DNA of 39,333 nucleotides from Bryobacterales bacterium (lineage in GTDB: Bacteria; Acidobacteriota; Terriglobia; Bryobacterales; Bryobacteraceae): the NCBI GenBank assembly GCA_016789755.1, contig JAEUQG010000075.1, forward strand, positions 1 to 39,333. The letters run 5' to 3'. A model generated the notes under the pieces. It did not search any database. It saw only the letters and a list, made by a program, of their open reading frames with translations, and had not been told where the DNA came from. This document shows, piece after piece, positions 1,800 through 39,333 of this stretch. Within the stretch, counting starts at the first letter, position 1. Every line of letters starts with the position of its first letter. The translations under genes were made by a program, and so were the position numbers.

Positions 1800-4250
1800 T
1801 TATTCCCAGCGTAGGGCGCGCATGGGATCGATGGCGGCGGCGCGGCGGGCGGGGATGAGGGTTGCGATGGCGGTGACGGCGAGCAGGAGGAGGGGGACGA
1901 GGATCATGGTGACCCAATCGACGGCTTCCATTTGGAAGGCGGCTTTCATGGCGAAGCCTGCTCCGACGCCGCCGAGCATGCCGAGGGCGAGGCCGATGGA
2001 GGCGAGGGTCATGCCCTGACGGAGGACCATGCGGAGGACGCCGTCGCGGCCGGCTCCGATGGCGATGCGGATGCCGATTTCGCGGGTGCGGCGGCTGACG
2101 GAATAGGAGATCAGTCCGTAGAGGCCGGTGAGGGCGAGGACGAGTCCCATGAGGCCGGAGATGCCGATGACCTGGGCGATGAGGGCGGTGATGCGGACGG
2201 CGCGCATGTCGTAGAACTCTTCCATGGTGCGGACGTCGTAGATGGGCTGATTGGGGTCAATGGCGCGGGCGGCTTCGCGGACGGGGGCAATCATGCCGGC
2301 GGAAGGGGATTCGCTGTGAGCGAGGAGGCGCATGCGGGTTTTGGGGAACTGGCGGTAGGGGAGGTAGAGGAAGGGTGTGGGGGCTTCGGCGATCCAGAGA
2401 TAGACGCCGGTTTCGGCGACGCCGACAACCTGCACCCAATCGCCTTTGGGATCGCCGAGGCGGAGGCGTTTGCCGATGGGGTCCTGATTGGGCCAGTAGC
2501 GTTTGGCGAACTCCTGGTTGACGACGGCGACTTTGGGGGAGTCTTTGGTGTCGGTTTCGGCGAAGGGGCGGCCGCGGGTGAGGCGGATCTGCATGGTATC
2601 GAAGTAACGTTCGGAGACGGTGCTGGCCATGACGCCGACGCTTTCCTGATTTTGGGGGAACTGATAGCCTTCGGGGATGGCGTATTCCAACTGCTGGTTG
2701 TTGCCGAAGGGGATGACGCTGGAGAGTGCGGCGGAGCGGACGCCCGGGGTTTTGGCGGCGGCATCGAGGACGCGCTCATAGTATTTTCCGGTGCGTGCGG
2801 CGTCGAAACGGACGAGGGCGGGATCGAAGGCCATCATGACGAGGTGATCGGTGCGGAAGCCGGGATTGCCTGCGATGAGGGCCTGGAAGGCGCGGGCCAT
2901 CATGGAGGCGCAGACGAGCAGGACGACGGAGAGGGCCACTTGCGCGACGACGAGGACGTTGCGCCCGAGGAGGCGGCGGCGGATGGATTCGGCCTGATCG
3001 CCTTCCTTGAGGGCAGTGACGAGATCGGTGCGGGTGGTCTGGAGGGCGGGAGCGAGGCCGGAGACGAGAGCGCTGGCGACGCCGGCGATGAGGGTGAACC
3101 AGAGGACGCGTTCGTTGAGCTCGATGCTGAGCGTGACAGGAAGGTCGGTGGGGATCTGGATGGTGGAGAGCAAGCGCACGCCGGCGACGGCGATGAGGAG
3201 GCCGAGGGCCATGCCTCCGAAGGAGAGGAGCAGGCTTTCGGTGAGCAACTGGCGGACGAGCTGGAAGCGGGTGGCGCCCATGGAGAGGCGGATGGCGATT
3301 TCGCGGGAGCGTCCGCGGGCGCGGCTGAGCATGATGTTGGCGACGTTGGCGCAGGCGATCAGCAGGACGATGCCGGTGATGCTCATCATGAGCATGACGA
3401 GGGTGGTGTCGGGAGGGGAGCGTTCCATGCGGTGCTGGACCTGGGAGCGGACGAGGAAGGTGAAGTTACGGTTGGTACCGGCGTAGGTTTTCGCCAATGC
3501 GGCAGCGATTGCGGAGAGCTCGGTTTCGGCCTGTTGGGGGCTGACGCCGGGCTTGAGGCGTGCGTGCAGTTCGAGCACGCGGCTGTCGCGCTTTTCAAGG
3601 AAGGCGTAGGCTTCTTTCGATGTGGAGAGGGCTCCGGACATCTGCAGGGGGACGAAGAAGGCGGGGCGGAAGAACTGGTCCATGCCGGTGAAGGATTGGG
3701 GGGCGACGCCGACGATGGTGAATTCGACGGCGTTGAGCCGGACTTTGCGTCCGAGGACGTTGGGGTTGCCGGCGAAGCTCTGCTGCCAGAGATCATGGCC
3801 GAGGACGAGGACGGCGTCGCGGCCGGGGACCCTGGTTTCCTCGGGGCGGAACATGCGTCCCAGTTGGGGGCGGACGCCGAGGACATCGAAGAAGTTGCCG
3901 CTGACGGCGAAGCCGGCTTTGAGTTGGGGGAGGGCATCGGCGGTGGTGGCGAAGCCGACGGAGTGGCCGCGGTGGGCGACGATTCCATCGAAGCTGCGGC
4001 TTTGGGCGGCGAGGTCGAGGTAGTCGCGATAGGAGACATCCTCGAAGGCGTCCTGCGGGGTTTTGCCGCGGACCATGACGACGCGGGAGGCATCCTCGAC
4101 GGGGAGGGGGCGCAGGAGGAGGGCGTCGGCGAGGCTGTAGATGGTGGAATTGGCTCCGATGCCCAACGCCAGGGAGATCATGGCGAGAGCGGCGTATCCG
4201 GGATTCTTGCTCAAGGTGCGAATGGCAAACCGGACGTCTTTGAGGAGCAT
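1800..4250 (-). CDS. ADOP-family orphan ABC permease (MacB/FtsX-like, duplicated)
   Basis: This 816-residue inner-membrane protein has two tandem MacB_PCD plus FtsX halves. The N-terminus carries the family hallmark GIGANSTIYSLADALLLRPL (about residues 30-49), followed by a periplasmic domain and a first FtsX block near residues 285-400 (VANIMLSRARGRSREIAIRL). A second half starts near residue 430 and ends with a second FtsX block containing SRRTREIGIRIAIGA. This layout matches TIGR03434, the Acidobacterial Duplicated Orphan Permease family, including its usual length near 800 residues. The start is supported by AAGGA four bases before ATG. No ATPase gene is adjacent, as is normal for the family. 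Members are thought to work in export or mechanotransmission, but the substrate is unknown and nothing here reveals it. Confidence 0.93.
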   Translation of the reverse strand: MLLKDVRFAIRTLSKNPGYAALAMISLALGIGANSTIYSLADALLLRPLPVEDASRVVMVRGKTPQDAFEDVSYRDYLDLAAQSRSFDGIVAHRGHSVGFATTADALPQLKAGFAVSGNFFDVLGVRPQLGRMFRPEETRVPGRDAVLVLGHDLWQQSFAGNPNVLGRKVRLNAVEFTIVGVAPQSFTGMDQFFRPAFFVPLQMSGALSTSKEAYAFLEKRDSRVLELHARLKPGVSPQQAETELSAIAAALAKTYAGTNRNFTFLVRSQVQHRMERSPPDTTLVMLMMSITGIVLLIACANVANIMLSRARGRSREIAIRLSMGATRFQLVRQLLTESLLLSFGGMALGLLIAVAGVRLLSTIQIPTDLPVTLSIELNERVLWFTLIAGVASALVSGLAPALQTTRTDLVTALKEGDQAESIRRRLLGRNVLVVAQVALSVVLLVCASMMARAFQALIAGNPGFRTDHLVMMAFDPALVRFDAARTGKYYERVLDAAAKTPGVRSAALSSVIPFGNNQQLEYAIPEGYQFPQNQESVGVMASTVSERYFDTMQIRLTRGRPFAETDTKDSPKVAVVNQEFAKRYWPNQDPIGKRLRLGDPKGDWVQVVGVAETGVYLWIAEAPTPFLYLPYRQFPKTRMRLLAHSESPSAGMIAPVREAARAIDPNQPIYDVRTMEEFYDMRAVRITALIAQVIGISGLMGLVLALTGLYGLISYSVSRRTREIGIRIAIGAGRDGVLRMVLRQGMTLASIGLALGMLGGVGAGFAMKAAFQMEAVDWVTMILVPLLLLAVTAIATLIPARRAAAIDPMRALRWE

Positions 4251-4289: not shown

Positions 4290-7200
4290 TTATCGCCCGA
4301 AATATCCGCTGACTTCGACGACGACATCGGTGCGGCGGAAGGCGTAGATATTGATGGCTCCGTTTGTGCCCGCGGGGATGATGGCCGAATTGGTGACGAT
4401 TTGTCCCTGGAAGGCGTTGAGAATGGAAGCGTTCGGCTGAGCCTGTCCAGTGGGGTAGGCGGTGATGAAAGGCATGGGGTTGCCGGCGGGGAGGGCGGTG
4501 ACATTGAGGGCGTAGCCTTTGGCGGTGGCGGGGATGCCGGAGCAGCCGGCGGCGGCAGGGATGTTGACGGTGCGCGTGCTCTCATCGGGGTACTGGCCGC
4601 CGGAGACGGTGGAATCGTTGGCGCGGCACTGGGTGACGGGGTAGTAGAAGAGTCCGTTGACGCCGTCGTCGGGGGCGTAGTAGCCGTTGATGTCGATGAT
4701 GAAATCGGTGGCGTCGAAGGTGAAGACGTCGATGGAGCCGTTGGCGCTGGCGGGAACGATGACGCTGTTGGCGAGGACACGGCCGGCGAAGGAGTTGATG
4801 TTCGAGACATTGGGCTGGGCGGCGCCGCTGGGCCATGCGGTGAGATAGGCGAGCGGGCCGGGGGGGACAACAGTGATGGTTACGGAATAGGCGGCGGCCT
4901 GGGGCACGGTGCAGTAGGGAGTTTCCGGGAAGCGGAAGGAGCGGGTTTGGCGGGCGGTCATGCTGGGGGGGCCGAAGGGGCCGGCGGGGGAGCGGTAGGC
5001 GCTACGTGTTTCAATGACGCGGCAGGGGGTCAATGGGTAGTAGGCGAGGCCGGCGACGGCGGGGCTATCGGTGTAGTAGCCGCTGATGTCGATGAGGAGG
5101 TCGGTGTTTTCGGAGGCGTAGACGCTGATTCCTCCGTTAACGCCGGCTTTGACGATGGCGGAGTTGGCGACGATCTGGCCGTCGGGGGAGCGGATGGTCC
5201 AGACGTTGGGGCGGGTTTCGCCGGCAGGCCAGAGGGTGGCGAAGTTGACGGCGCTGGTGGGGATGAGGGTGACGTTCACGACGTAGGCTTTGGCTGTGGC
5301 GGGGATGGTGCAGACGTTCGATTGCGGGAGATTGAGGGTGCGCACTTCGGCGGCGTTGAGGGAAGGCGGGCCAAAGGCTCCGGTGCGCCCTTCGAAGTTG
5401 TAGAGGCTGCGCGTTTCCATGACGCGGCAGGGGTTGAGGGGCACGAATTTGAGGCCGCCGGGAGTGATGGGAGTGCCTCCGTTGAATAGCGCCGTGAGCG
5501 ACTTGACGGCATCCATGGTGACGGTGGTGGAGGGGCTGAGTGGAGTGGCGACGCCGCCGGTCCAGGCGGTGAAGGTGGATCCGGCGGAGGGCGTGGCATT
5601 CACCGCGACCACAGTGCCGGCATCGTAGTAGCCGCCGGTGGCTGGAGTGACCGTTCCGCCGTTGGTGGGCGAGGCGGCGATGGATAGCTGATATTGCGTT
5701 TTGAAGGTTGCGGTGTAGGTGATGGCTGATGCGGGGACGGTGATGGTGTGGCTGGCCGCGCCCGAGTCGCTCCATCCGGTGAAGAGGTATTGGGCGCCGG
5801 CAGCGCCTGCCTGCGTGGTGGTGACGGCGATGGCGTGCTGTGTACCGGCGGCGAGGTTGACGGTGCAGGGCGTGGTGCAGGCGTTGCCATCGATGGTGGC
5901 GGTGCGACCGGTGGGAACCGATGTGACGGTGATGGGGACGCCGCTGTTGCCGCCTCCATTCACGGTAACGGCATTGAGAATGGCAATGACTTGGTTGCTA
6001 GAGGTGGACAGGGAGGATACCGCCAAGTCCGGTTTTCCGTCGGCGTTGAAATCGGCAGTTACCAGGCCGTTGGGGGAATCGCCGGCAGTCACCAGGATTT
6101 CCGTCTGGAAGGTTCCGTTGCCGTTGCCGATGTGGAAGGTGACGTCGGTGTCGCCGCAGCAATGGGACACCATGAGATCCTGTTTGCCGTCGTTGTTGAA
6201 ATCGGCGGCGACTGCTTCTTTGGGGCCGAAATCGGTGTTGATGAGCGAGGCAGCGCCAAAGGCTCCCGTGCCCGAGTTGAGCAAGATGGCGAGGCGGAAG
6301 CCGAAGTTGGTGGTGGTGGTAGTGGCCACCAGGTCCAGTTTTCCGTCGGCGTTGAGATCGGCGGCCAGCGTGGAGGAAGGATTGATACCCGCGGAATAGC
6401 TGACCGCGTTTTGGAAGGTCCCGTTGCCGTTGCCGGTGAAGACGGCGACAGCGCCGGGATTGGTTGTGGAGTTGAATTCTCCGTAGCGGGTGGTGACGAG
6501 ATCGAGTTTTCCGTCACCGCTGACATCGGCGAGCAGGGCTTGATTTGCGCCGGTGGCTCCATTGATATTGGCTGCCGCCTGGAAGGTGCCATCTCCGTTG
6601 CCTGCCAGGAACATGGTAGGGAGATTGCTGTTGCTGCCGCTGGTGGGCTCAGACCCTCCGGCAATGAGATCGGGCTTTCCGTCGCCGTTGACATCACCCG
6701 CGGCAAGGAATGAGACACGGGCGCCGATGTTCCGCGCGACCGGATTCTGGAATGTGCCGTCGCCGTTGCCGGGGATGATCCAGACGCGGTTGTTGGTATC
6801 GGCGACGGCGATGTCGAGTTTGCCGTCGTTGTTGAAGTCGCCGGATGCGGCGTCATTGACGAAAGCCCCGGCCACGGGAATCTTCAGAGGCTGCTGCATG
6901 GAGCCATTGCCCAGTCCGATCAGGACGGCCGCGCCACCGCTGTAGTTGGCGAGCAGATCGGGCTTGCCGTCCTTGTTGAAGTCGGCTGTGTACAGCCTTC
7001 GGATGCCGGAAGGAATGGCATAGGCGGGAGCGCCGATCAGGGTACCGTCTCCCTTTCCGAAGAGAACCTTGATCTGGCGAATGTAGGGTGCGGGAGTGAG
7101 TCCATCGGGGTGGCCGGCGGCAATGACGATGTCCTGATTGCCGTCCCCGTCGAAATCCATCATGAAGAACATATTTCCGAACAGATCGCCGGGGGGCGTG

Positions 7201-8327
7201 CCGGAGAGGTAGGTGTGTTTGGTGGGGAAGGTGAGATTGCCCGCTCCTATCATCACGGTGAGCGAGGCATTGAAATAGGAACTGATGGCCAGATCGGGAT
7301 TGCCGTCTTTGTTGAGGTCGCCGGCGGCGATGAAGGTGGGGGTGATATCGGTGGGGATCAAGGTGGGGGCCTGGAACGTTCCGTTGCCATTGCCGGCGAG
7401 GATGGATATTCCGTTGTTGGCGGCCACGGCGATGTCGCGCTTGCCGTCCTTGTTGAGATCGGCGGTAAGGATAGACCATGGATTGACGATGCCCGCGTAG
7501 TTTACGGGGGCGTTGAATGTGCCGTCCCCCTTGTTGATGAGGACGCTGACGTGGTCATCCCCGAAGTTGGATACGGCGAGATCGGGCTTGTTGTCGCCGT
7601 TGAAGTCGCCGGCGGTGGCGTAAGCTGGAAACTCGCCGGTGGTATATTGCACGCCAGTGCCGAGGACACCGCCGGGGGCGCCGAGGTAGACGGAAATGCC
7701 TCCGGCGGCGTTGAAGTCGCCATAGTTGACCACGACGACGTCGAGCCGGCCATCGGTGTTCAGGTCGGCTGTGAGGAGTGTCTGGGGATCTTTGCCCGTG
7801 TCGTATTCCACCGATGTTTTCAACGAGATATTGGGGTTGATGGCGCCGACGGAGAGCTTGTTGGTTTTGAGGCCGACACCGGCCAGAGTGCCCACGCCAT
7901 CGCCGGCGATGTCGGCAATGATGGGGTTGCGGGAACTGGTTCCAAGCAGGACATCGGTGATGTTCGGGCGTCCGGCGATGGGGACGTGGGTGCGGGCTGG
8001 AAGACCGGTGCAGGTGTAGAAGTTGGACTGGAATGCCGCGGTGGTGTTCTGCTTGGTATAGGGGCTGAGTTTGAGGAAGTCGTGGAAGGTGAAAGACCCA
8101 TCGGCGAGGCGCTGCAAGCCTCCGGCGCGATTGGAGAGGAACACGGTAGCCTCGGCGGCGCCGAGGTAGTTGAAGGCGGGGCAGGTGGACTGAGGGAAGG
8201 CGGGGAGGGATAGGGAGGCGAGGAGAGCTAACGGAACAAGACTCCGGACTGCGTCACGGAGATGGCGATGGATTCCGAGTTGACGAGTCCTCGGGCGCGG
8301 ATGGGGGGTGGCATTTGTTGGGGCCAT
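4290..8327 (-). CDS. Giant secreted FG-GAP (VCBS) repeat protein with InlB-like domain and triple C-terminal module
   Basis: The product has 1345 residues from the ATG at 8327. That is the last in-frame canonical start before the signal peptide core SLVPLALLASLSLPAFPQS; the longer frame to 8573 is only antisense-like overlap. Twelve canonical FG-GAP calcium-loop repeats of the form DxNxDGxxD (for example ADLNTDGRLD, AGDFNGDNKPD, ADFNADGKPD) run from about residue 187 to 790, enough for a seven-bladed or longer propeller. Residues 796-957 form an InlB-B-like or Flg_new-like beta domain (FTGWSDSG, GYYDAGTVV). Residues 958-1345 are three related modules, each opening with PxxPCR or QCR and closing with DI(S/N)GY or VSGYF. 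The start overlaps the upstream TIG-like gene by 100 bases and has no clear Shine-Dalgarno site, which suggests translational coupling. Probable role: cell-surface or extracellular adhesion or glycan binding (inference). Confidence 0.85.
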   Translation of the reverse strand: MAPTNATPHPRPRTRQLGIHRHLRDAVRSLVPLALLASLSLPAFPQSTCPAFNYLGAAEATVFLSNRAGGLQRLADGSFTFHDFLKLSPYTKQNTTAAFQSNFYTCTGLPARTHVPIAGRPNITDVLLGTSSRNPIIADIAGDGVGTLAGVGLKTNKLSVGAINPNISLKTSVEYDTGKDPQTLLTADLNTDGRLDVVVVNYGDFNAAGGISVYLGAPGGVLGTGVQYTTGEFPAYATAGDFNGDNKPDLAVSNFGDDHVSVLINKGDGTFNAPVNYAGIVNPWSILTADLNKDGKRDIAVAANNGISILAGNGNGTFQAPTLIPTDITPTFIAAGDLNKDGNPDLAISSYFNASLTVMIGAGNLTFPTKHTYLSGTPPGDLFGNMFFMMDFDGDGNQDIVIAAGHPDGLTPAPYIRQIKVLFGKGDGTLIGAPAYAIPSGIRRLYTADFNKDGKPDLLANYSGGAAVLIGLGNGSMQQPLKIPVAGAFVNDAASGDFNNDGKLDIAVADTNNRVWIIPGNGDGTFQNPVARNIGARVSFLAAGDVNGDGKPDLIAGGSEPTSGSNSNLPTMFLAGNGDGTFQAAANINGATGANQALLADVSGDGKLDLVTTRYGEFNSTTNPGAVAVFTGNGNGTFQNAVSYSAGINPSSTLAADLNADGKLDLVATTTTTNFGFRLAILLNSGTGAFGAASLINTDFGPKEAVAADFNNDGKQDLMVSHCCGDTDVTFHIGNGNGTFQTEILVTAGDSPNGLVTADFNADGKPDLAVSSLSTSSNQVIAILNAVTVNGGGNSGVPITVTSVPTGRTATIDGNACTTPCTVNLAAGTQHAIAVTTTQAGAAGAQYLFTGWSDSGAASHTITVPASAITYTATFKTQYQLSIAASPTNGGTVTPATGGYYDAGTVVAVNATPSAGSTFTAWTGGVATPLSPSTTVTMDAVKSLTALFNGGTPITPGGLKFVPLNPCRVMETRSLYNFEGRTGAFGPPSLNAAEVRTLNLPQSNVCTIPATAKAYVVNVTLIPTSAVNFATLWPAGETRPNVWTIRSPDGQIVANSAIVKAGVNGGISVYASENTDLLIDISGYYTDSPAVAGLAYYPLTPCRVIETRSAYRSPAGPFGPPSMTARQTRSFRFPETPYCTVPQAAAYSVTITVVPPGPLAYLTAWPSGAAQPNVSNINSFAGRVLANSVIVPASANGSIDVFTFDATDFIIDINGYYAPDDGVNGLFYYPVTQCRANDSTVSGGQYPDESTRTVNIPAAAGCSGIPATAKGYALNVTALPAGNPMPFITAYPTGQAQPNASILNAFQGQIVTNSAIIPAGTNGAINIYAFRRTDVVVEVSGYFGR
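4293..5456 (-). repeat. Three-part C-terminal protein module, copy A
   Basis: This DNA encodes three consecutive modules of 135, 132 and 121 residues at the extreme C-terminus of the FG-GAP protein. Modules 1 and 2 share PLxPCR(V)xETR, GPFGPPS or GAFGPPS, a second Cys before (T)(I/V)P, WP(A/S)G, PN, and a closing DI(S/N)GYY. Module 3 keeps the two Cys positions and ends in VVVEVSGYFGR at the stop, but lacks the ETR/GPP loop. The same ordered triplet ends the protein at 36870-39333. Similar units are known to me from acidobacterial and actinobacterial surface proteins, without an assigned function. Confidence 0.85.
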
Positions 8328-9784
8328 GAGATGAGGGTGACTCGTCCCGGGGGTTGCCCTGGGGTCTGGCGCGAGGCAGGGAGATGGGCCATCAAATCCT
8401 GAGGGATGGTCACAGTGCCGCGGGCGGCCGTTTGGAGGCAGAGGCACACCGCCGTTGAGAGGGTGGGCGAGATGGCCGAAGCGGCGGCCAGAACGAGGCG
8501 GTTCGAGTCGGGAGTACGCCATTCTACTGTAAGTGGTGCCGCAGTCGAATGTATCACGTCCTGAGCATTCCACTGCAAGGGCGGCGCGGTCACAAGGGCA
8601 ACGGTGAAGTCTCCGAGGGTGGGCGAGGCGGGGATTCGTATTTGCAGTGCACCGGAGTCGAGGAGCAGGGGGAGGGGACGTTCTCCGATGCGCGGGGTGG
8701 CTTTACCGGAGAGGGTTGCGCGAAAGAGGCCGGGGGCCGCTGGGGTTTGGGGAATCCGGCGCTGGATGCGGCCGTTGTTGGCTGTAATGGACGGGCCGGC
8801 ATCGATGCCTTGGCCGGGCTTGCCGAGGAGGAATGCCAGCACCGATTGGGAAGCGGCATCGGGAACCGCGGCGGTGACGAGGGTGCAGCCGCCGGCGGGC
8901 AATCCGTAGAGGAGCGGGGAGGAGATGCCGAGTGCTGGGTTGAAATCGAAGAACGCGGCGAGGATCTCATCGACGATTTGAGGGGTAGAGTCGCCAGTTT
9001 CGCGGGAGTGGACGCGCCCGGCCAACAGGACTGCCGAGGGGCCCGGTTTCCAGTGGGCCATGGGGAAGGCCGGCGATGGGGGGCAGGGGCCGGCGGAGGC
9101 GATGGCCACGGTGACGGTGTTGGTTGCGTGGGCCGGGGTGGGCAGGCGCAGGGGGACGAAGCAGCCCTCTGTGGGTTTGGGGGGGATTTCGATGAGAACC
9201 TCGTCGATGGATGGGCGGATGTTGCGGCGGATGGAGCGGATTTTGGCGGGGGCGCCACCGATGATAGCGTGGAGCGGAGTAGCCGCGCCAAGCCCGGTGG
9301 TTTGGAGGGCGATGGCATCGCCGGGGCGGGCGGGACGAAGGGGGCCGTTGGCGGTACGGGTGGGTCCGGCGAGGTTCGTGGCGGCGGCGGGACCCCAGCC
9401 CAATCCGTTGCGGGAGTAGAGGCCGGCGTTCGATGCCACGATTGTGACGGGCTGTTCGGGGCTTTGTTCGCCAGCGACGGTGACGGAGAGTTTCGCGGGG
9501 CCGGGTTCGGCATCCGGCGGAAGGCGGACTTCGATGGCGGTGGGAGTGACGGCGAGTACCTGGGCGTTGAGGGCGCGTTGGGGGCCGCGGATGGTGACGG
9601 TGACGGCGGAGGGCGCGGCGCCGAAGCGGATGCCTTCGATCAGGATGCGGGCTCCGCGAGCGAGAGTTCCGCCGGGGAGGGTGGAGGGGATACGGCTTGC
9701 GGCGTTGGAGATGCCGTTGACGGCGATGGCGGGGGGCGCGGCGGCGGCGATGGACGAGGATAGCCAGAGGAGAAGGGGAATCAA
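8228..9784 (-). CDS. Secreted TIG/Soli_cterm-like beta protein
   Basis: The 518-residue product begins at a TTG (9784) that gives a clean signal peptide, MIPLLLWLSSSIAAAAPP; no ATG is available nearby in frame. Residues 20-180 follow the pattern of Solibacter C-terminal domain proteins (TIGR03437) and IPT/TIG folds: a GISNAASRIPSTLPGG opening, a GARILIEGIRFG turn, and GDAIALQTTGLGAA. The remainder is beta-rich and without recognised catalytic motifs. The gene sits immediately upstream of the FG-GAP giant, in the same direction, with a 100-base overlap, so the two are probably co-expressed and both exported. Family function is unknown; such domains are usually treated as structural or binding units of outer-surface proteins. 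Confidence is high for a secreted gene and moderate for the domain label. Confidence 0.75.
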   Translation of the reverse strand: MIPLLLWLSSSIAAAAPPAIAVNGISNAASRIPSTLPGGTLARGARILIEGIRFGAAPSAVTVTIRGPQRALNAQVLAVTPTAIEVRLPPDAEPGPAKLSVTVAGEQSPEQPVTIVASNAGLYSRNGLGWGPAAATNLAGPTRTANGPLRPARPGDAIALQTTGLGAATPLHAIIGGAPAKIRSIRRNIRPSIDEVLIEIPPKPTEGCFVPLRLPTPAHATNTVTVAIASAGPCPPSPAFPMAHWKPGPSAVLLAGRVHSRETGDSTPQIVDEILAAFFDFNPALGISSPLLYGLPAGGCTLVTAAVPDAASQSVLAFLLGKPGQGIDAGPSITANNGRIQRRIPQTPAAPGLFRATLSGKATPRIGERPLPLLLDSGALQIRIPASPTLGDFTVALVTAPPLQWNAQDVIHSTAAPLTVEWRTPDSNRLVLAAASAISPTLSTAVCLCLQTAARGTVTIPQDLMAHLPASRQTPGQPPGRVTLISWPQQMPPPIRARGLVNSESIAISVTQSGVLFR

Positions 9785-9808
9785 AGCGGAAATATGATAA
9801 CAGGGGAC

Positions 9809-9864
9809 GGGAGAGGGGAGTCGGAAGACGGAAGACGGAAGACGGAAGACGGGAGTCGGGAGAC
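9809..9864. repeat. Heptanucleotide tandem array, eight units
   Basis: Eight 7-bp units run head to tail: GGGAGAG, GGGAGTC, four perfect GGAAGAC, GGGAGTC, GGGAGAC. The array fills the divergent gap between the TIG-like gene (start 9784) and the YbbP-like permease (start 9923). Purine bias is strong on the plus strand. The frame from 9794 reads through it into low-complexity residues, which argues that the longer permease start is not real. Confidence 0.9.
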
Positions 9865-9922
9865 GGGTGAGGCGCGTTGTGAGAAGATCGTCGAAGCTCG
9901 GATGGGAGGGCGGGAGTTTTTC

Positions 9923-12388
9923 ATGTGGCGCGTTGTCATGAGGCTGGCTTGGCGCGATTTGAGGCGGGCGGGCTGGAGGACTGCTTGGATTGCGGCGGCG
10001 GTCGCTTGCAGTGTTGCCGCGGTGTTTGGGGTGCGCGGCGCTGAAGTGATTGCGCGCCGGTCGCTCGAAACGGATTTGCGGCGCTGGCTGGGCGCGGACG
10101 TTTCGGCGATGACGGGTGAAGCGGTGGATGGGGAAGTGCTTCTGGCGGTGGATGGCATGCGTCCGCGGCCGGAGTCATGGACGCTTGTTTCGTGGACTCT
10201 GGCGATGTCGCGGTCGGCGGAGTCTCCCGATCCTTTGCTGACGGTCGTGAAAGTGGTCGATCCGGCGACGTATCCACTGTACCCGGGGTTGGTGCTGGAA
10301 CCTGGGCCATTGGCGGCGGTGCTGCGCGATGGGGAGATTGCGGTCTCGAGCGAGGTGCTGGAAAAGCTGCATGTTGGGATTGGCGATGGCATTGAGGTGG
10401 GTGGGCGCCGGTTGCGTATCGGGGGGGTGGTGCGGGCCGAGGCGGACCGGTTGAACGGATTCGCGGGGGTTGCGGCACGGGCGATTGTCTCGCGGGAAAC
10501 TTATCGAAAGGCGGGATTGTCAGGGGCGGGGAGCGCCTGGAAGCACGGCGTTCTGTTGAAGCTTTCCGGGGAGGCGGATCTGGCCGGGTTCCGTGCGGCT
10601 TTGCAGGGAATTCTGCCTGAGGCGGGGATTACGGACTACCGCGAGTCGAACCAGCACGCGGTGTCGTCGGTGCGGGCGAATATCGCGTTTCTGGGCGTGG
10701 CGGCGTTCCTGGTGATGGCGGTGGGCGGGGTCGGCATTGTGGCGGCCATGCGGCAGCATGCGATAGGGCAAACGCCGGTCATTGCCGTTCTGAAGATCCT
10801 GGGGGCGCGGACGCCGCATGTGGCGGGGGTGTTTCTGATGGAGATGGGGATGCTGTCGGTATGCGGCGCCGCGGCCGGGTTGCCGTTGGGGCGGCTGGCG
10901 CGGGATGTGGCGCTGCGGCTGTGCGGCATCGAGGCAACGCAATCGATGGTGGAAGAGGGGTGGCTGCAAGCCGTGTGGGAAACACTCGCATTGATGGGTC
11001 TGGCTTTTCTTCCGGTGCTGCCTCAGCCGGCGGCGATCATCCGGCGGGTGCGTCCGGTGGAAGCGCTGCGAGGATGGGAGGGAGTGGGTGGGCCGGGGTT
11101 GCGGGAGAAGGGCAACGGGGTGGCGTTGGGCGGGGCGTTCGTTCTGCTGGGGTTGCTGGGGATGCGGCTGGTGAATTCGTTTCTTTCGGCGGCGGCACTG
11201 ATTGGGGCGTTGCTGGCCTGTTTCGGGCTGGCGGTGGCGATGACGCATGGCGCGCTGGGGATGCTGGCGGCGGCGGCGGAGCGGATCCGTCATGGGGCAA
11301 TGCGGCTTGCGCTGCGCAATCTGGGCAATCGGGCACATGGATTGCAGCATCTTGCGGTGGCGCTGGCGATGGGCGTGATGCTGATGGTGACGACGTACGA
11401 AGCCAACCGGGCAGTTGGGCAAAAGGCGATGGATGCCCTGCCGTTCGACGGGGCAAATCTCTTGGTGGGCGGCTTTGAAGGGGAGTTTCGCGAGCGCGTG
11501 CGGGAAGCGCTGGGGAGTGTTCCGGGCGTGGAGGGGGCGGCGCAGGTGGTGACGCAGGCGCGGCTGCGGTTGAGCGCGGTGGACGGGGGGGGGTTGGGAG
11601 AGTTGCAAAGGGGCCTCCGGCCCAATGCAATTCCCGAAGCGTGGCGGGATGTGGGCTGCTTGCCGTCGATGGGACCGGATGGAGTGCAGGTGGCCGCCGA
11701 TGTGGCGGATCTTCTTCGTGTGCGGGTGGGATCGACGCTCGAGTTCACTTCGCGCAGCGGAGTGCTGCGGAAGCGCGTGGCGGCGGTGCGGCCGATTTCG
11801 CGGGTGGAGAAATTCTGGTACACCTTCACACTGGACTGCAGCGGGATGGGCCGGTCGAGTCTGCATCATCTGGCGGCGGCGCGCATTCGTCCGCAAGAGC
11901 TGAACGCGGCCCGGAACGCGATGGCGGCGCAGTTCCCGCTGCTTGCGGTGCTGACGTCGGGGGACCTGGCGGCGATCGGGGAAGAGGCGGCGGAGCGCAT
12001 TCTGGGGATTACGCGCATTGTGGCTTGGTACGCGATTGTGGCGAGCCTGGCGGTGCTTGCGGCCGCGGTGTCGGCGTCGCGAACGGGGCGGTTGCGGGAG
12101 TTTGCGATTTTGTCGGCGCTGGGGGCCGGTCCGGGGACGGTGGCGCGCATTCATTCGATGGAACTGGCGGCGGCAGGGCTGCTGGCGGCGGTGGTGGGCA
12201 GCCTGCTGTCGAGTCTTTTCCTGAGCATCGCGTTGAGCGTGACGTTGCAGCGGGTGGAGATCGCGGCGGGGTGGCATGGGGCCGCGGCGGCGATGTTGCT
12301 GTCGCCGGCAGTTACTGTGATGGCGGGATGGGTTCCGGTGTATGGCTTCCTGCGCCGCCGCCCGTTAGAGTGGTTACGGATGCAGTAG
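9923..12388 (+). CDS. YbbP-like FtsX-family ABC permease
   Basis: From the ATG at 9923 the product has 821 residues; GGGAG lies seven bases upstream, and the protein begins MWRVVMRLAWRDLRRAGWR, a typical positive-inside N-terminus before TM1. The frame extends to 9794, but that stretch is encoded by the heptamer array. The first half has TM1, a periplasmic domain beginning LGADVSAMTGEAVDG, and an FtsX-type block near AAMRQHAIGQTPVIAVLKIL. The second half repeats the plan and ends with SRTGRLREFAILSALGAG and two final membrane helices. Layout and length fit COG3127 (YbbP), which works with a YbbA-type ATPase. No ATPase is adjacent. It is clearly a different branch from the ADOP gene at 1800-4250. 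Its 3' end overlaps the convergent TMEM164-like gene by 77 bases. Confidence 0.85.
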   Translation: MWRVVMRLAWRDLRRAGWRTAWIAAAVACSVAAVFGVRGAEVIARRSLETDLRRWLGADVSAMTGEAVDGEVLLAVDGMRPRPESWTLVSWTLAMSRSAESPDPLLTVVKVVDPATYPLYPGLVLEPGPLAAVLRDGEIAVSSEVLEKLHVGIGDGIEVGGRRLRIGGVVRAEADRLNGFAGVAARAIVSRETYRKAGLSGAGSAWKHGVLLKLSGEADLAGFRAALQGILPEAGITDYRESNQHAVSSVRANIAFLGVAAFLVMAVGGVGIVAAMRQHAIGQTPVIAVLKILGARTPHVAGVFLMEMGMLSVCGAAAGLPLGRLARDVALRLCGIEATQSMVEEGWLQAVWETLALMGLAFLPVLPQPAAIIRRVRPVEALRGWEGVGGPGLREKGNGVALGGAFVLLGLLGMRLVNSFLSAAALIGALLACFGLAVAMTHGALGMLAAAAERIRHGAMRLALRNLGNRAHGLQHLAVALAMGVMLMVTTYEANRAVGQKAMDALPFDGANLLVGGFEGEFRERVREALGSVPGVEGAAQVVTQARLRLSAVDGGGLGELQRGLRPNAIPEAWRDVGCLPSMGPDGVQVAADVADLLRVRVGSTLEFTSRSGVLRKRVAAVRPISRVEKFWYTFTLDCSGMGRSSLHHLAAARIRPQELNAARNAMAAQFPLLAVLTSGDLAAIGEEAAERILGITRIVAWYAIVASLAVLAAAVSASRTGRLREFAILSALGAGPGTVARIHSMELAAAGLLAAVVGSLLSSLFLSIALSVTLQRVEIAAGWHGAAAAMLLSPAVTVMAGWVPVYGFLRRRPLEWLRMQ

Positions 12389-35092: not shown

Positions 35093-36880
35093 TTGGCACT
35101 ACTCATCAACGCTCAGAACCTCTCGAAATCTTTTGGGGCGGAATCGCTTTTCGACAACATCAACTTCACGGTGGAAGAAGCCGCGCGGGTGGGGCTGATC
35201 GGGCCCAACGGGTCGGGGAAATCGACGCTGCTGCGGATTTTGGCGGGGCTGATTGAGCCTGACAGCGGGGAAGTGGCGATTCGCAAACGGGTGCGCTTCT
35301 GCTATGTGGCGCAGGAGTCGCAATTCGGCAGTGAAGATCGAGTGCGGGACGTGTTGTCGCGGGTGGTGGAATCGCTGACGGCGCCGGAGGTGGTGGAGAC
35401 GATCGGGCGGGCGGGGTTCGACAATCTGGATGCCGAGGTGAGTTCGTTTTCGGGCGGGTGGAAGAAGCGGCTGGCGATTGTGGAAGCGCTGATCCAGCAT
35501 CCGGATGTGTTGCTGCTGGACGAGCCGACGAATCATCTGGATCTGGCGGGCATCCAGTGGCTGGAGAAGACGCTGGCGGCGGCGGCGTTGGCGTGCGTGG
35601 TGATCAGCCATGACCGTTATTTTCTGGAGAACGTGGCGACGGAGATGGTGGAACTGAATCGCGCCTACCGCGAGGGTTTGCTGCGGGTGGAGGGTACGTA
35701 CAGCACCTTTCTGGAGAAGAAGGCGGATTATCTGCACGCGCAGGCGAAGCGTCAGGATGCCTTGGAGAACCGGGTGCGGACGGAGATGGAGTGGCTGCGG
35801 CGCGGACCGAAGGCGCGGACGACGAAATCGAAAGCGCGCATCGACAAGGCGAATGAACTGATTGGGGAGCTGGCCGATTTGGAGAGCCGGGCGCGCACGG
35901 CGACGGCGGGCATCGATTTTTCGGCCACGGACCGGAAGACGAAGAGGCTGATCGAACTGGAGAAGGTATCGGTGGATCTGGGGGGGCGCACGCTGTTTTC
36001 GGGTCTTGATTTTGTGGTGACGCCGGGGACGCGGATCGGGCTGGTGGGGCCGAACGGTTCGGGCAAGTCGACGCTGATGCGGGTGCTGATGGATCAGATG
36101 AAGCCGACACAGGGTACGGTGCGGCGGGCGGACCTGCTGCGGATGGTGTATTTCGATCAGAACCGGCAACTGGATTCCGGTGTGACGTTGAAACGGGCGC
36201 TTGCTCCGGATGGGGATTCGGTGTTGTATCAGGACAGGGTGCTGCATGTGGCGTCGTGGGCGGCGCGGTTTCTGTTTCAAAGCGATCAGCTTAACCAGCC
36301 GGTGGGGCGGCTTTCGGGCGGCGAGCGGGCGCGGGTTCTGATCGCGAAGCTGATGCTGGAGCCGGCCGATGTGCTGTTGCTCGATGAGCCGACGAACGAT
36401 CTGGACATACCGACGCTGGAGATACTGGAGGAGAGTTTGCTGGAGTTTCGCGGGGCGCTGGTGCTGGTAACGCACGACCGCTATTTGCTGGACCGGGTGG
36501 CGACGGTGGTGCTGGGGCTCGATGGGGAGGGTGGGATTGGGCGGTTCGCGGACTATTCGCAATGGGACGAGTGGCAAGCGGGGCAGAAGAAGCCTAAGGC
36601 GACGCCAGCGCCGGCGCCGGCGGCCGCAACGCAGTCTGCGCCCACGCCGTCGAAGAAGAAATTGTCGTACCTGGAGGCGCGGGAGTACGAGACCATCGAG
36701 CAGCGCATTGCCGAGGCGGAGCAAGCGCTGGAAGGGGCCCGGGCGAAGCTTCAGGACAGCGCGGTGGTGACCGATGGGCGGGCTTTGCAGGATGCCTATC
36801 AGGCGCTGCAAACGGCCCAGGACGCGGTGGATGCACTGTACCACCGCTGGTCGGAACTGGAGCAGAAGCTCAGCGGTTGA
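35093..36880 (+). CDS. uup: ABC-F family ATPase, Uup type
   Basis: The 595-residue soluble protein has two ABC domains: Walker A GPNGSGKS (residues 37-44) and a second copy, signatures FSGGWKKR and LSGGERAR, and Walker B LLLDEPTNHLD and LLLDEPTNDLD, joined by the ABC-F linker rich in Arg/Lys (LRRGPKARTTKSKARIDKAN). The C-terminal 80 residues (IEQRIAEAEQALEGARAKL) are the coiled-coil tail that marks Uup. Uup acts on ribosomes and branched DNA intermediates rather than transport. The start is TTG, with no Shine-Dalgarno; the next in-frame methionine would remove the conserved LLINAQNLSKSFG strand, so TTG is preferred. It overlaps the convergent giant repeat gene by 11 bases. Confidence 0.93.
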   Translation: MALLINAQNLSKSFGAESLFDNINFTVEEAARVGLIGPNGSGKSTLLRILAGLIEPDSGEVAIRKRVRFCYVAQESQFGSEDRVRDVLSRVVESLTAPEVVETIGRAGFDNLDAEVSSFSGGWKKRLAIVEALIQHPDVLLLDEPTNHLDLAGIQWLEKTLAAAALACVVISHDRYFLENVATEMVELNRAYREGLLRVEGTYSTFLEKKADYLHAQAKRQDALENRVRTEMEWLRRGPKARTTKSKARIDKANELIGELADLESRARTATAGIDFSATDRKTKRLIELEKVSVDLGGRTLFSGLDFVVTPGTRIGLVGPNGSGKSTLMRVLMDQMKPTQGTVRRADLLRMVYFDQNRQLDSGVTLKRALAPDGDSVLYQDRVLHVASWAARFLFQSDQLNQPVGRLSGGERARVLIAKLMLEPADVLLLDEPTNDLDIPTLEILEESLLEFRGALVLVTHDRYLLDRVATVVLGLDGEGGIGRFADYSQWDEWQAGQKKPKATPAPAPAAATQSAPTPSKKKLSYLEAREYETIEQRIAEAEQALEGARAKLQDSAVVTDGRALQDAYQALQTAQDAVDALYHRWSELEQKLSG

Positions 36881-39333
36881 AGTAGCCGCTGAGTTCGACT
36901 ACAACCTGCGTCGGGCGGTAGGCGAATACGTTAACCTGCCCGTTGGGGCCGGACGGGATGATGGCCGAGTTGCTGACCGTTTGCCCCTGGAATGCGTTGA
37001 GCACGGATGCATTGGGCTGCGGCTGGCCTGTTGGGAAGGCGGTGAGGAACGGCATGGGCGATCCGTTGGAGATGGAAGTGAAGTTGAGGGCGAAGGCCTT
37101 GGCCGAGGACGGGATGTTGAGGCATTGCCCGGAGGCGGCAATTCCGATGGTGCGGGTGCTTTCCGAGTCGTAGGCGGCGTCGCTGATGCGGCACTGGGGC
37201 GCGGTGTAGAAGAAGAGGCCCGTCTGGCCGTCGTCGGGAGCGAAGTATCCGTTGATGTCGATGAGGAAATCGGTTTCGTTGAAGGCGTAGACATCGATGC
37301 TGCCGTTGGCGCTGGCAGGGACGATGACGCTGTTGGCGATGATGCGTCCGGACGGCGAGTTGATGCTGGAGACGTTTGGCTGAGGCCCTCCGGCGGGCCA
37401 GATGGTCATGAACTGGAGCGGGCCTTTGGGAACTGCGGTGAGAGAGACGGAGAAGGCGCGGGCGTTGGCGGGGATGGTGCAGTAGGGTCCGGCGGGGAAC
37501 TGGAAGGTGCGTTTGACCTGGGCGTTGAGGGACGGCGGGCCGAAGGGTCCGGCGGGCTGGCGGTAGTCGATGCGCGTGTCGATGACGCGGCAGGGGGTGA
37601 GGGGGTAGAAGACGAGATTCGAGGTAGCCGCGGAATCGGTGAAGTAGCCGGCGATGTCGATGATGAGGTCGGCGTCGTTGGAGGCGAATACCTGGATTGC
37701 GCCCGCCGTGCCGGCGGCGACGATGGCGGCGTTGGCGACGATTTGGGCGTCGGGGGAGCGGACGGTCCAGAAGTTGGGGCGTGACTGGCCGGCGGGCCAA
37801 ATGGTGATGTGATCGACGCCGCCGCGGGGGACAAGGGTGACGTTGAGGACGTAGGCCTTGGCGTCGGCCGGGATGGTGCAAACGTTCGATTGCGATGGCG
37901 TCAGAGTGCGGGATTCATTGGCCTGCATGTAGGGCGGGCCGAAGGCTCCGGTGCGGCCCTGGAAGTTGTATTCGGGACGGGTTTCCATGAGGCGGCAGGG
38001 TTCGAGGGAGACGAAACGGAGAGCGTTGGAGAGAGACGGGGCCGCGTCCTGGACGATGGTGACGGCAGCGGTGCCGATGGTGATGGATCCGACGCGCGCC
38101 GCGCCGGTGTTGCGGTCAACGCTGTAGCGGACCGGGCTTTCGTTGGCGGAGGAGAGGATGTGAATCCAACTGGTTTGTGTGGCGGGCGCATAGACGCAGT
38201 TAGCGGTTACGGGGAAGTTGCCGGTGAAGGCGGTGGCGGGGACGTTGTAGGTGGATTGCGGGACGTTGAAGGTGCAGGTGGAACCGCCGGATGTGTAGTT
38301 GGCGATGGTGCTGCGGGGGCCGTTCATGGTGACGTTCTGGGGGTTTGCGACGCCGGTGAGGTCGCCGGACCAGTTCTGGAAATTGGAGGCGGAGGCGGTG
38401 AGTTGGACGACGGCGCCGGCGTTGTAGTAGCCGTCGGCGGAGGAGGGATTCGTTGTGATTGTCCCGGATCCGTTGGGGGAGACGGCGGTGGTGAGGAGAT
38501 ATTGGGTGGTGAAATTGGCGGTGTAGGTGGTGGCGGATGCGGGAGTGGCGATGGAGTGGGAGATGGCGCCGGCGTCGCTCCAGTTGGAGAAGGTGTAGCG
38601 GGTGCCTCCGCCCGATTGGGGGGAGGAGGTGGCGATGGTGTGCTGGCTGCCTTGTGTCCAACTGAAGACTTGGGGTGAGGAATAGGTGCTGCCGTCGACG
38701 GTGAAGGTGCGGCCGATGGGGCTGGTGGTGACGGTGATGGAGATGCCGGGGCTCGAGTAGTTGGCGGTGACGGAACGGGGTCCGTTCATGGTGAGGTTCT
38801 GCGGGTTGGTGGCGCCGGTGAGGTCGCCGGACCAGTTCTGGAAATTGGCGGACGATGCGGTGAGTTGGACGCTGGCGCCCGCGTTGTAATAGCCGTCGCC
38901 GGAGGAGGGACTCGCTGTGATGGTCCCTGATCCATTGGGGGAGACGGCGGTGGTGAGGAGATATTGGGTGGTGAAACTGGCGGTGTAGGTGGTGGCGGAT
39001 GCGGGAGTGGTGATGGAGTGGGAGATGGCGCCGGCGTCGCTCCAGTTGGAGAAGGTGTAGCGGGTGCCTCCGCTCGATTGGGGAGAAGAGGTGGCGATGG
39101 TGTGCTGGCTGCCAGGAGTCCAATTGAAAACTTGGGTTGAGGAGTATGGTGTGCCGTCGACGGTGAAGGTGCGGCCGATGGGGTTGGTGGTTACGGTGAT
39201 GCTGGCGCCGGTGCTGAAGTTGGCGGTGACGGAACGGGGTCCGTTCATGGTCAGATTCTGGGGGTTGGTGGAGCCGGTGAGGTCGCCGGACCAGTTCTGG
39301 AAATTGGCGGACGATGCGGTGAGTTGGACGCTG
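36870..39333 (-). CDS. Giant secreted repeat protein, InlB-like repeats, BACON-like domain and triple C-terminal module (5' end outside window)
   Basis: The frame is open to the right edge; the apparent start at 39248 is an internal methionine within a repeat. At least 820 residues are visible. From the N-terminal side: InlB-B-like units of 153-154 residues in tandem (GRTFTVDG, YTFSNWSDAGAISHSI, GYYNAGASVQLTAS, FQNWSGDLTG), then a BACON-like domain (CTFNVPQSTYNVPATAFTGN through RVGSITIGTAAVTIVQDA), then the three-part C-terminal module of 384 residues ending VVVELSGYFNR. The protein is a long beta rod typical of surface or extracellular adhesins; the BACON domain suggests carbohydrate contact. 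It overlaps uup by 11 bases at its 3' end. Confidence 0.85.
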   Translation of the reverse strand, partial: SVQLTASSANFQNWSGDLTGSTNPQNLTMNGPRSVTANFSTGASITVTTNPIGRTFTVDGTPYSSTQVFNWTPGSQHTIATSSPQSSGGTRYTFSNWSDAGAISHSITTPASATTYTASFTTQYLLTTAVSPNGSGTITASPSSGDGYYNAGASVQLTASSANFQNWSGDLTGATNPQNLTMNGPRSVTANYSSPGISITVTTSPIGRTFTVDGSTYSSPQVFSWTQGSQHTIATSSPQSGGGTRYTFSNWSDAGAISHSIATPASATTYTANFTTQYLLTTAVSPNGSGTITTNPSSADGYYNAGAVVQLTASASNFQNWSGDLTGVANPQNVTMNGPRSTIANYTSGGSTCTFNVPQSTYNVPATAFTGNFPVTANCVYAPATQTSWIHILSSANESPVRYSVDRNTGAARVGSITIGTAAVTIVQDAAPSLSNALRFVSLEPCRLMETRPEYNFQGRTGAFGPPYMQANESRTLTPSQSNVCTIPADAKAYVLNVTLVPRGGVDHITIWPAGQSRPNFWTVRSPDAQIVANAAIVAAGTAGAIQVFASNDADLIIDIAGYFTDSAATSNLVFYPLTPCRVIDTRIDYRQPAGPFGPPSLNAQVKRTFQFPAGPYCTIPANARAFSVSLTAVPKGPLQFMTIWPAGGPQPNVSSINSPSGRIIANSVIVPASANGSIDVYAFNETDFLIDINGYFAPDDGQTGLFFYTAPQCRISDAAYDSESTRTIGIAASGQCLNIPSSAKAFALNFTSISNGSPMPFLTAFPTGQPQPNASVLNAFQGQTVSNSAIIPSGPNGQVNVFAYRPTQVVVELSGYFNR
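36873..38024 (-). repeat. Three-part C-terminal protein module, copy B
   Basis: Modules of 135, 133 and 116 residues match, one by one and in order, the modules at 4293-5456. For example, module 1 has YNFQGRTGAFGPPYM here against YNFEGRTGAFGPPSL there; module 2 has IVPASANGSIDVYAF against IVPASANGSIDVFTF. Each module keeps two cysteines, likely a disulfide. Confidence 0.85.
38328..39333 (-). repeat. Near-identical 459/462-bp tandem DNA repeats
   Basis: Two full units (38328-38789, 462 bp; 38790-39248, 459 bp) and the first 85 bases of a third are visible, continuing past the right edge. Long stretches are identical between units, for example the block around CCGGACCAGTTCTGGAAATT, found at about 38366, 38827 and 39287. 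Each unit encodes one InlB-like repeat. Confidence 0.9.

Follow-up and report, generated by a model that had tools for sequence, protein, structure and literature searches.

We found that a module of secreted proteins, first seen at the C-termini of two large proteins of a Bryobacterales bacterium, occurs almost only as exactly three copies in tandem or as one copy per chain. The reading we favour, and consider likely, is that the triplet is a covalent, single-chain pseudo-trimer, that single copies trimerise, that in some cases the unit is split 1 + 2 over two genes, and, more tentatively, that this unit docks at the cell surface.

Two proteins of one contig share an ordered module triplet

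The window analysed here is the whole stretch of 39,333 nt, i.e., the entire contig C569 of a source genome (G000) of 8.2 Mb, assembled in 596 contigs and 87% complete. The relevant features are:

4290..8573, minus strand: protein A, ends in the module triplet
5049..5453, minus strand: module 1 of protein A (identity matrix, M1/M2/M3 tree)
4653..5048, minus strand: module 2 of protein A (identity matrix, M1/M2/M3 tree)
4293..4652, minus strand: module 3 of protein A, terminates the protein (..VVVEVSGYFGR, then stop); in the M3 clade (support 100/99)
4293-5453, minus strand: whole triplet of protein A
36870..39332, minus strand: protein B, N-terminus lost at the contig end
37617..38021, minus strand: module 1 of protein B (identity matrix, M1/M2/M3 tree)
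37218..37616, minus strand: module 2 of protein B (identity matrix, M1/M2/M3 tree)
36873..37217, minus strand: module 3 of protein B (identity matrix, M1/M2/M3 tree)
36873-38021, minus strand: whole triplet of protein B

Protein A has a signal-peptide-like N-terminus (its listed GTG start is probably too far upstream), followed by about 11 FG-GAP repeats, divergent InlB B-repeats and the triplet. Protein B is composed of tandem repeats of about 154 aa, a BACON-like stretch and the triplet; the repeats are InlB/PEGA-like by eye and gave no significant match in Pfam. Protein B lacks a start in the window because its ORF runs past the end of the contig. At the DNA level its repeats (D4/D7, within 36873-39332, minus strand) have a period of 462 nt, are 86–97% identical and reach the contig end, and the assembly probably broke inside this array. 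Two FtsX/MacB-type permease genes (1800-4250, minus strand, and 9794-12388, plus strand) flank the neighbourhood of protein A; one of them, co-oriented with A, is its immediate downstream neighbour.

In both proteins the modules are about 115–135 aa long. Modules at equal positions of A and B share 65.2% (A1-B1), 67.4% (A2-B2) and 60.9% (A3-B3) identity, vs. 31.9–51.1% for pairs at unequal positions, and DNA-level repeats concur (71–74% over about 285–300 nt). The triplet of A used as a query finds that of B at E = 1e-166, which excludes chance. The original prediction had located both triplets correctly as to strand and to within one codon, and had rightly seen that modules 1, 2 and 3 match their own counterparts best. 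Its pairing of A with a second giant protein bearing the same triplet also stands, with the correction that the pair is not alone, about 18 genes of the source genome being members of the same family. Besides B, nine of the encoded proteins are of the triplet class: A, L023, L024, L025, L026, L027, L028, L030 and L029, the last being cut at a contig edge after at least two modules and a part. Five others (L032–L036) carry one near-N-terminal module followed by collagen-like repeats; at L031, an ORF with one module at its end precedes an ORF that has its own signal-peptide-like start and exactly two modules; and L037 is a module protein cut by a contig end.

When 37 of the genome's modules were placed in a tree, those of six triplet proteins (A, B, L023, L024, L025 and L026) fell into M1, M2 and M3 clades, each with support of 100/99. 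For these six paralogues triplication therefore preceded gene duplication, as had been predicted from A and B alone; the remaining triplets of the genome do not resolve into these clades. The conserved Cys pair that had been noted is likewise real: two Cys per module are conserved at 93% and 99% in 358 modules outside Actinomycetota, and the pair is absent from most Actinomycetota modules. What the original prediction overlooked is the number of modules, three.

Modules occur in threes, singly, or split over two genes

Profiles of the single module were scanned against named Acidobacteriota loci (L088–L165), genomes of the order and phylum, and Actinomycetota plasmids. As the profiles covered one module only, the search presupposed no particular number of modules per chain. 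The sample consists of matches and is no unbiased census; duplicates were removed before counting. In the phylum-wide scan no more than 14 candidates were scored for each genome, so that its negatives are weak. Among 123 chains with at least two modules, 111 contain three, 11 contain two and one contains an apparent four. The last (L134:396-3563) is a triplet in which an insertion of about 320 aa breaks module 2, so that the profile called four pieces; no surveyed chain has four intact modules. Five of the 11 twos are broken, i.e., frameshifted triplets (two pieces at L103, and L110) or fragments (L095 and L231), and six are intact (L031, two at L111, L155, L114 and L138). The nearly complete genome G008 encodes 10 triplets and one single module, the latter in a collagen-like protein. 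Of the 15 Actinomycetota plasmid loci, 14 carry three modules; the remaining one (L218) hardly differs from the first module of the intact triplet L225 and looks truncated.

The majority of single modules follow the signal peptide in fibre-like proteins, and their clearest hosts, with collagen repeats or Peptidase_S74, are of trimeric types; collagen and S74 proteins are known to trimerise. Seventeen full-length singles belong to collagen-repeat chains; the one such chain checked (L073) has a Pfam match to BclA_C, in the distal head only. At L083 (genome G044), two identical genes for 470-aa collagen-like single-module proteins lie 2 kb apart. Five singles belong to proteins that have YadA-like head repeats and end in an S74-type part; Pfam confirmed Peptidase_S74 for L081, for L139 and for one L197 protein out of two, and the rest were assigned by eye. 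Another seven are found in fibre-like proteins of genome G220 with GVYG-type repeats; the one such protein searched matches phage families of unknown function, and that these proteins are trimeric is a guess. Seven more (at L079, L080, L082, L210 and L211) are followed by an unclassified C-terminal tail of 85–90 aa, which has no Pfam match in the two cases searched (L080 and L211). A different arrangement is seen in family f35 (genomes G110, G147 and G220), where ten large, secreted proteins have one C-terminal module, and neither a known trimerising part nor a two-module partner was seen. These proteins look monomeric and do not fit the pattern; either the module makes homotrimers of them, or the rule of three fails there.

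Four of the one-module proteins are each directly followed by a small secreted protein with two modules (twice at L111, at L155 and at L031). The two genes overlap by ATGA in three of the four pairs (both at L111 and that at L155), and those of L031 are 6 bases apart. Overlaps of the ATGA type usually mean coupled translation, which suits one- and two-module partners that assemble together. Non-adjacent genes for two modules and one module also occur within one MAG in two instances (L138 with L102, and L114 with L089); a partnership of their products is possible.

The predicted structure resembles a trimeric fibre tip

The module is a predicted beta-sandwich domain. The model of triplet A, built from 65 sequences, reached a pLDDT of 95.8 and a pTM of 0.93, so that the packing of the three domains is predicted to be fixed; structure prediction of the triplet, proposed together with the original observation, thus returned one rigid body. 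The single module of L120 was modelled with similar scores (pLDDT 95.9, pTM 0.89). For both the single and triplet models the best fold match is the tip of the Bdellovibrio fibre Bd2133 (Z 9.0–9.3, rmsd 2.5–2.9 Å over 104–108 residues; Foldseek E 2.9e-4 to 7e-4, probability 1.00), and the topology of the beta-sandwich is the same (Z 9.0, rmsd 2.5 Å, 104/121 residues). The C-terminal domain of Bd2133 is a trimer with ions on its threefold axis and had no PDB homologue when solved (PMC10769870; PDB 8ok3, 8ond). Like our module, the tip is a beta-sandwich of about 120 residues within secreted fibres, and it is experimentally trimeric; unlike the triplet, it is present as one copy per chain, as a C-terminal tip and not in tandem, and with 11–14% identity no sequence relation is detectable.

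Lower-scoring fold matches include the trimers BC2L-C, BclA and C1q heads, a trimeric phage cement protein and, also at low scores, virus coats and carbohydrate-binding modules; rows other than Bd2133 (Z about 7 or less) were not used to decide on membership. The C1q/TNF superfamily (C1q heads, BclA, BC2L-C) shares with the module a jelly-roll-like domain and collagen stalks, and its domain is trimeric. It also offers precedents for the tandem form, both in nature, where mussel C1qDC proteins carry three C1q domains in a row (PMC5519582), and by engineering, in single-chain trimers (5hzf, 4zch) that align with our triplet: residues 3-386 with the single-chain APRIL-BAFF-BAFF (Z 6.5, 219 residues, a loose 5.2 Å) and residues 1-262 with the single-chain C1q (Z 6.7). 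Yet, full-length Z values of 6–7 are no more than common arrangements can reach, and two-domain proteins of the PNGase type do equally well. Moreover, the fold similarity of C1q/TNF domains to the module is weak (Z about 6) and there is no sequence relation; the collagen-linked module copy differs from them in being N-terminal, the distal head being another domain. The module had no match in Pfam, NCBIfam, PHROG or PDB sequences and was not found in the phage records searched, and triplets matched no Pfam profile at E up to 1, those of C1q, TNF and BclA_C included. A short stretch scored 20.8 bits against the NCBIfam bluetail profile, below its cut-off of 21, and was rejected. No description of the triplet was found in the open-access papers searched.

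On the reading we favour, the beta-sandwich module would work in groups of three. In fibres, whether collagen-like or S74-chaperoned, one copy per chain after the signal peptide would suffice, as three chains give three copies. In chains that do not trimerise, three tandem copies would pack round a pseudo-threefold axis as a natural single-chain trimer, and the split of the unit over two genes, 1 + 2, would be a third solution. Both the threefold packing of the triplet and the trimerisation of single copies are what we infer from these arrangements and models.

The strongest rival reading, though unlikely, sees in the triplet an array of lectin-like modules that bind carbohydrate independently of one another, repetition adding avidity. 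It draws on the carbohydrate-binding modules and the TNF-like lectin BC2L-C among the lower fold matches, and on partner domains of the module such as BACON, PKD and cutinase. However, avidity arrays vary in number, whereas the count here is fixed at three, unlike that of the partner FG-GAP repeats (about 11 in A), and the pTM of the triplet speaks against loosely linked beads. A trimeric lectin, for its part, would still suit the pseudo-trimer.

Triplets in different lineages

For 286 of 327 modules, the nearest neighbour is the same-position module of another protein. The earlier view that the modules are not a random repeat is upheld. Such conservation of position, like the order common to the six paralogues, would be expected of an inherited cassette, in which a single ancestral triplication was copied and shuffled en bloc and nothing in the structure calls for three. 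Yet, in a tree of 64 modules (quick method, SH-aLRT support only), the Actinomycetota modules form one clade (98) and those of Acidobacteriota family f71 (genome G309) another (100), with the modules of family f1 and of the named Acidobacteriota loci lying elsewhere. Triplets of Actinomycetota, f71 and f1 in separate clades suggest repeated triplication that halted at three, and a cassette leaves unexplained both the 1 + 2 pairs and the singles in trimeric fibres; we hold it to be somewhat less probable than the lectin array. Taken as they stand, the clades point to three or more origins of the triplet, one of them in Actinomycetota, although they could alternatively reflect gene conversion within an older triplet. 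We incline, with some reserve, to the view that a homotrimeric fibre domain was repeatedly turned into a single-chain pseudo-trimer, always of three, and was also split 1 + 2 over translationally coupled genes, so that a single docking unit would be achieved in three ways, 1×3, 3 and 1 + 2, in at least two phyla.

Position in the chain and export

The profile scan for C-terminal placement, suggested at the outset, revealed that the triplet ends the ORF in 96 of 111 cases. Most of the other 15 follow the N-terminus; in six Actinomycetota proteins the triplet is ahead of RHS repeats, cutinase or other parts, and that of L137 has only 26 residues after it. The chain end is therefore preferred, more often the C-terminal one, and the position is common rather than fixed, contrary to what had been claimed. 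Among the N-terminal triplets are L224, L225 and L226, from Curtobacterium and Paenarthrobacter plasmids, which precede RHS repeats or cutinase and may be the carrier end of polymorphic-toxin-like proteins.

By a crude signal-peptide rule, 122 of 164 module proteins look secreted, vs. 224 of 555 control ORFs, and the predicted link to extracellular proteins is upheld. Modules that appear singly, in any order and internally, with no link to export, had been named as evidence against the original prediction; singles and non-C-terminal triplets do occur, and order and export are nevertheless kept. A search of the source genome for an associated sorting system found neither PF18962, the T9SS tail domain by which that system was judged, nor a sortase match. 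An exosortase is encoded (G000:C250:9871-10629, E 5e-70), but the triplet proteins of this genome lack the PEP-CTERM-like C-terminal combination of motif, membrane helix and basic tail. Hence, although most triplets end their chains and the proteins look secreted, a C-terminal sorting or secretion signal like T9SS CTD, PEP-CTERM or LPXTG tails is most improbable, given N-terminal triplets and singles, chains that end on the last beta strand of module 3 with nothing beyond, the absence of a T9SS tail domain or sortase match from this genome, and the same triplets in Gram-positive Actinomycetota.

Surface attachment, the other half of the functional proposal, is still favoured, from the position of the module in fibres. 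The module of collagen-like and S74 fibres sits away from the adhesive head, which is why the unit might dock its protein on the surface of the producer's cell, with the triplet doing so for single-chain proteins. All 21 MAT (mosaic adhesive trimeric) fibres of Bdellovibrio share an N-terminal beta domain of about 130 aa, which the authors, by like reasoning as it lies distal to the head, propose to be at the predator cell surface (PMC10769870). Likened by description, this domain resembles the single module in size, in its place directly after the signal peptide and in belonging to S74-type trimeric fibres. Proteins A and B are unlike MAT fibres, which are beta-helical trimers with an S74 or other tip: their bodies are of the FG-GAP, InlB or BACON-like kind, and S74 gave no match in them. 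Some distant single-module relatives do have S74. The docking role rests on this analogy and is put forward tentatively; glycan binding is the main alternative function.

Implications

None of the family libraries that were searched has an entry for the module, although secreted proteins that carry it are numerous in Acidobacteriota and Actinomycetota and include proteases, cutinase, RHS proteins, and FG-GAP and propeller proteins. Should it prove to be a built-in trimer, a single structure would account for a domain common to many unannotated exoproteins. The family would then be a clear natural case of the passage from homo-oligomer to pseudo-oligomer, with the intermediates (1, 1 + 2 and 3) surviving, and might reveal by what means cells retain their collagen-like and S74 fibres.
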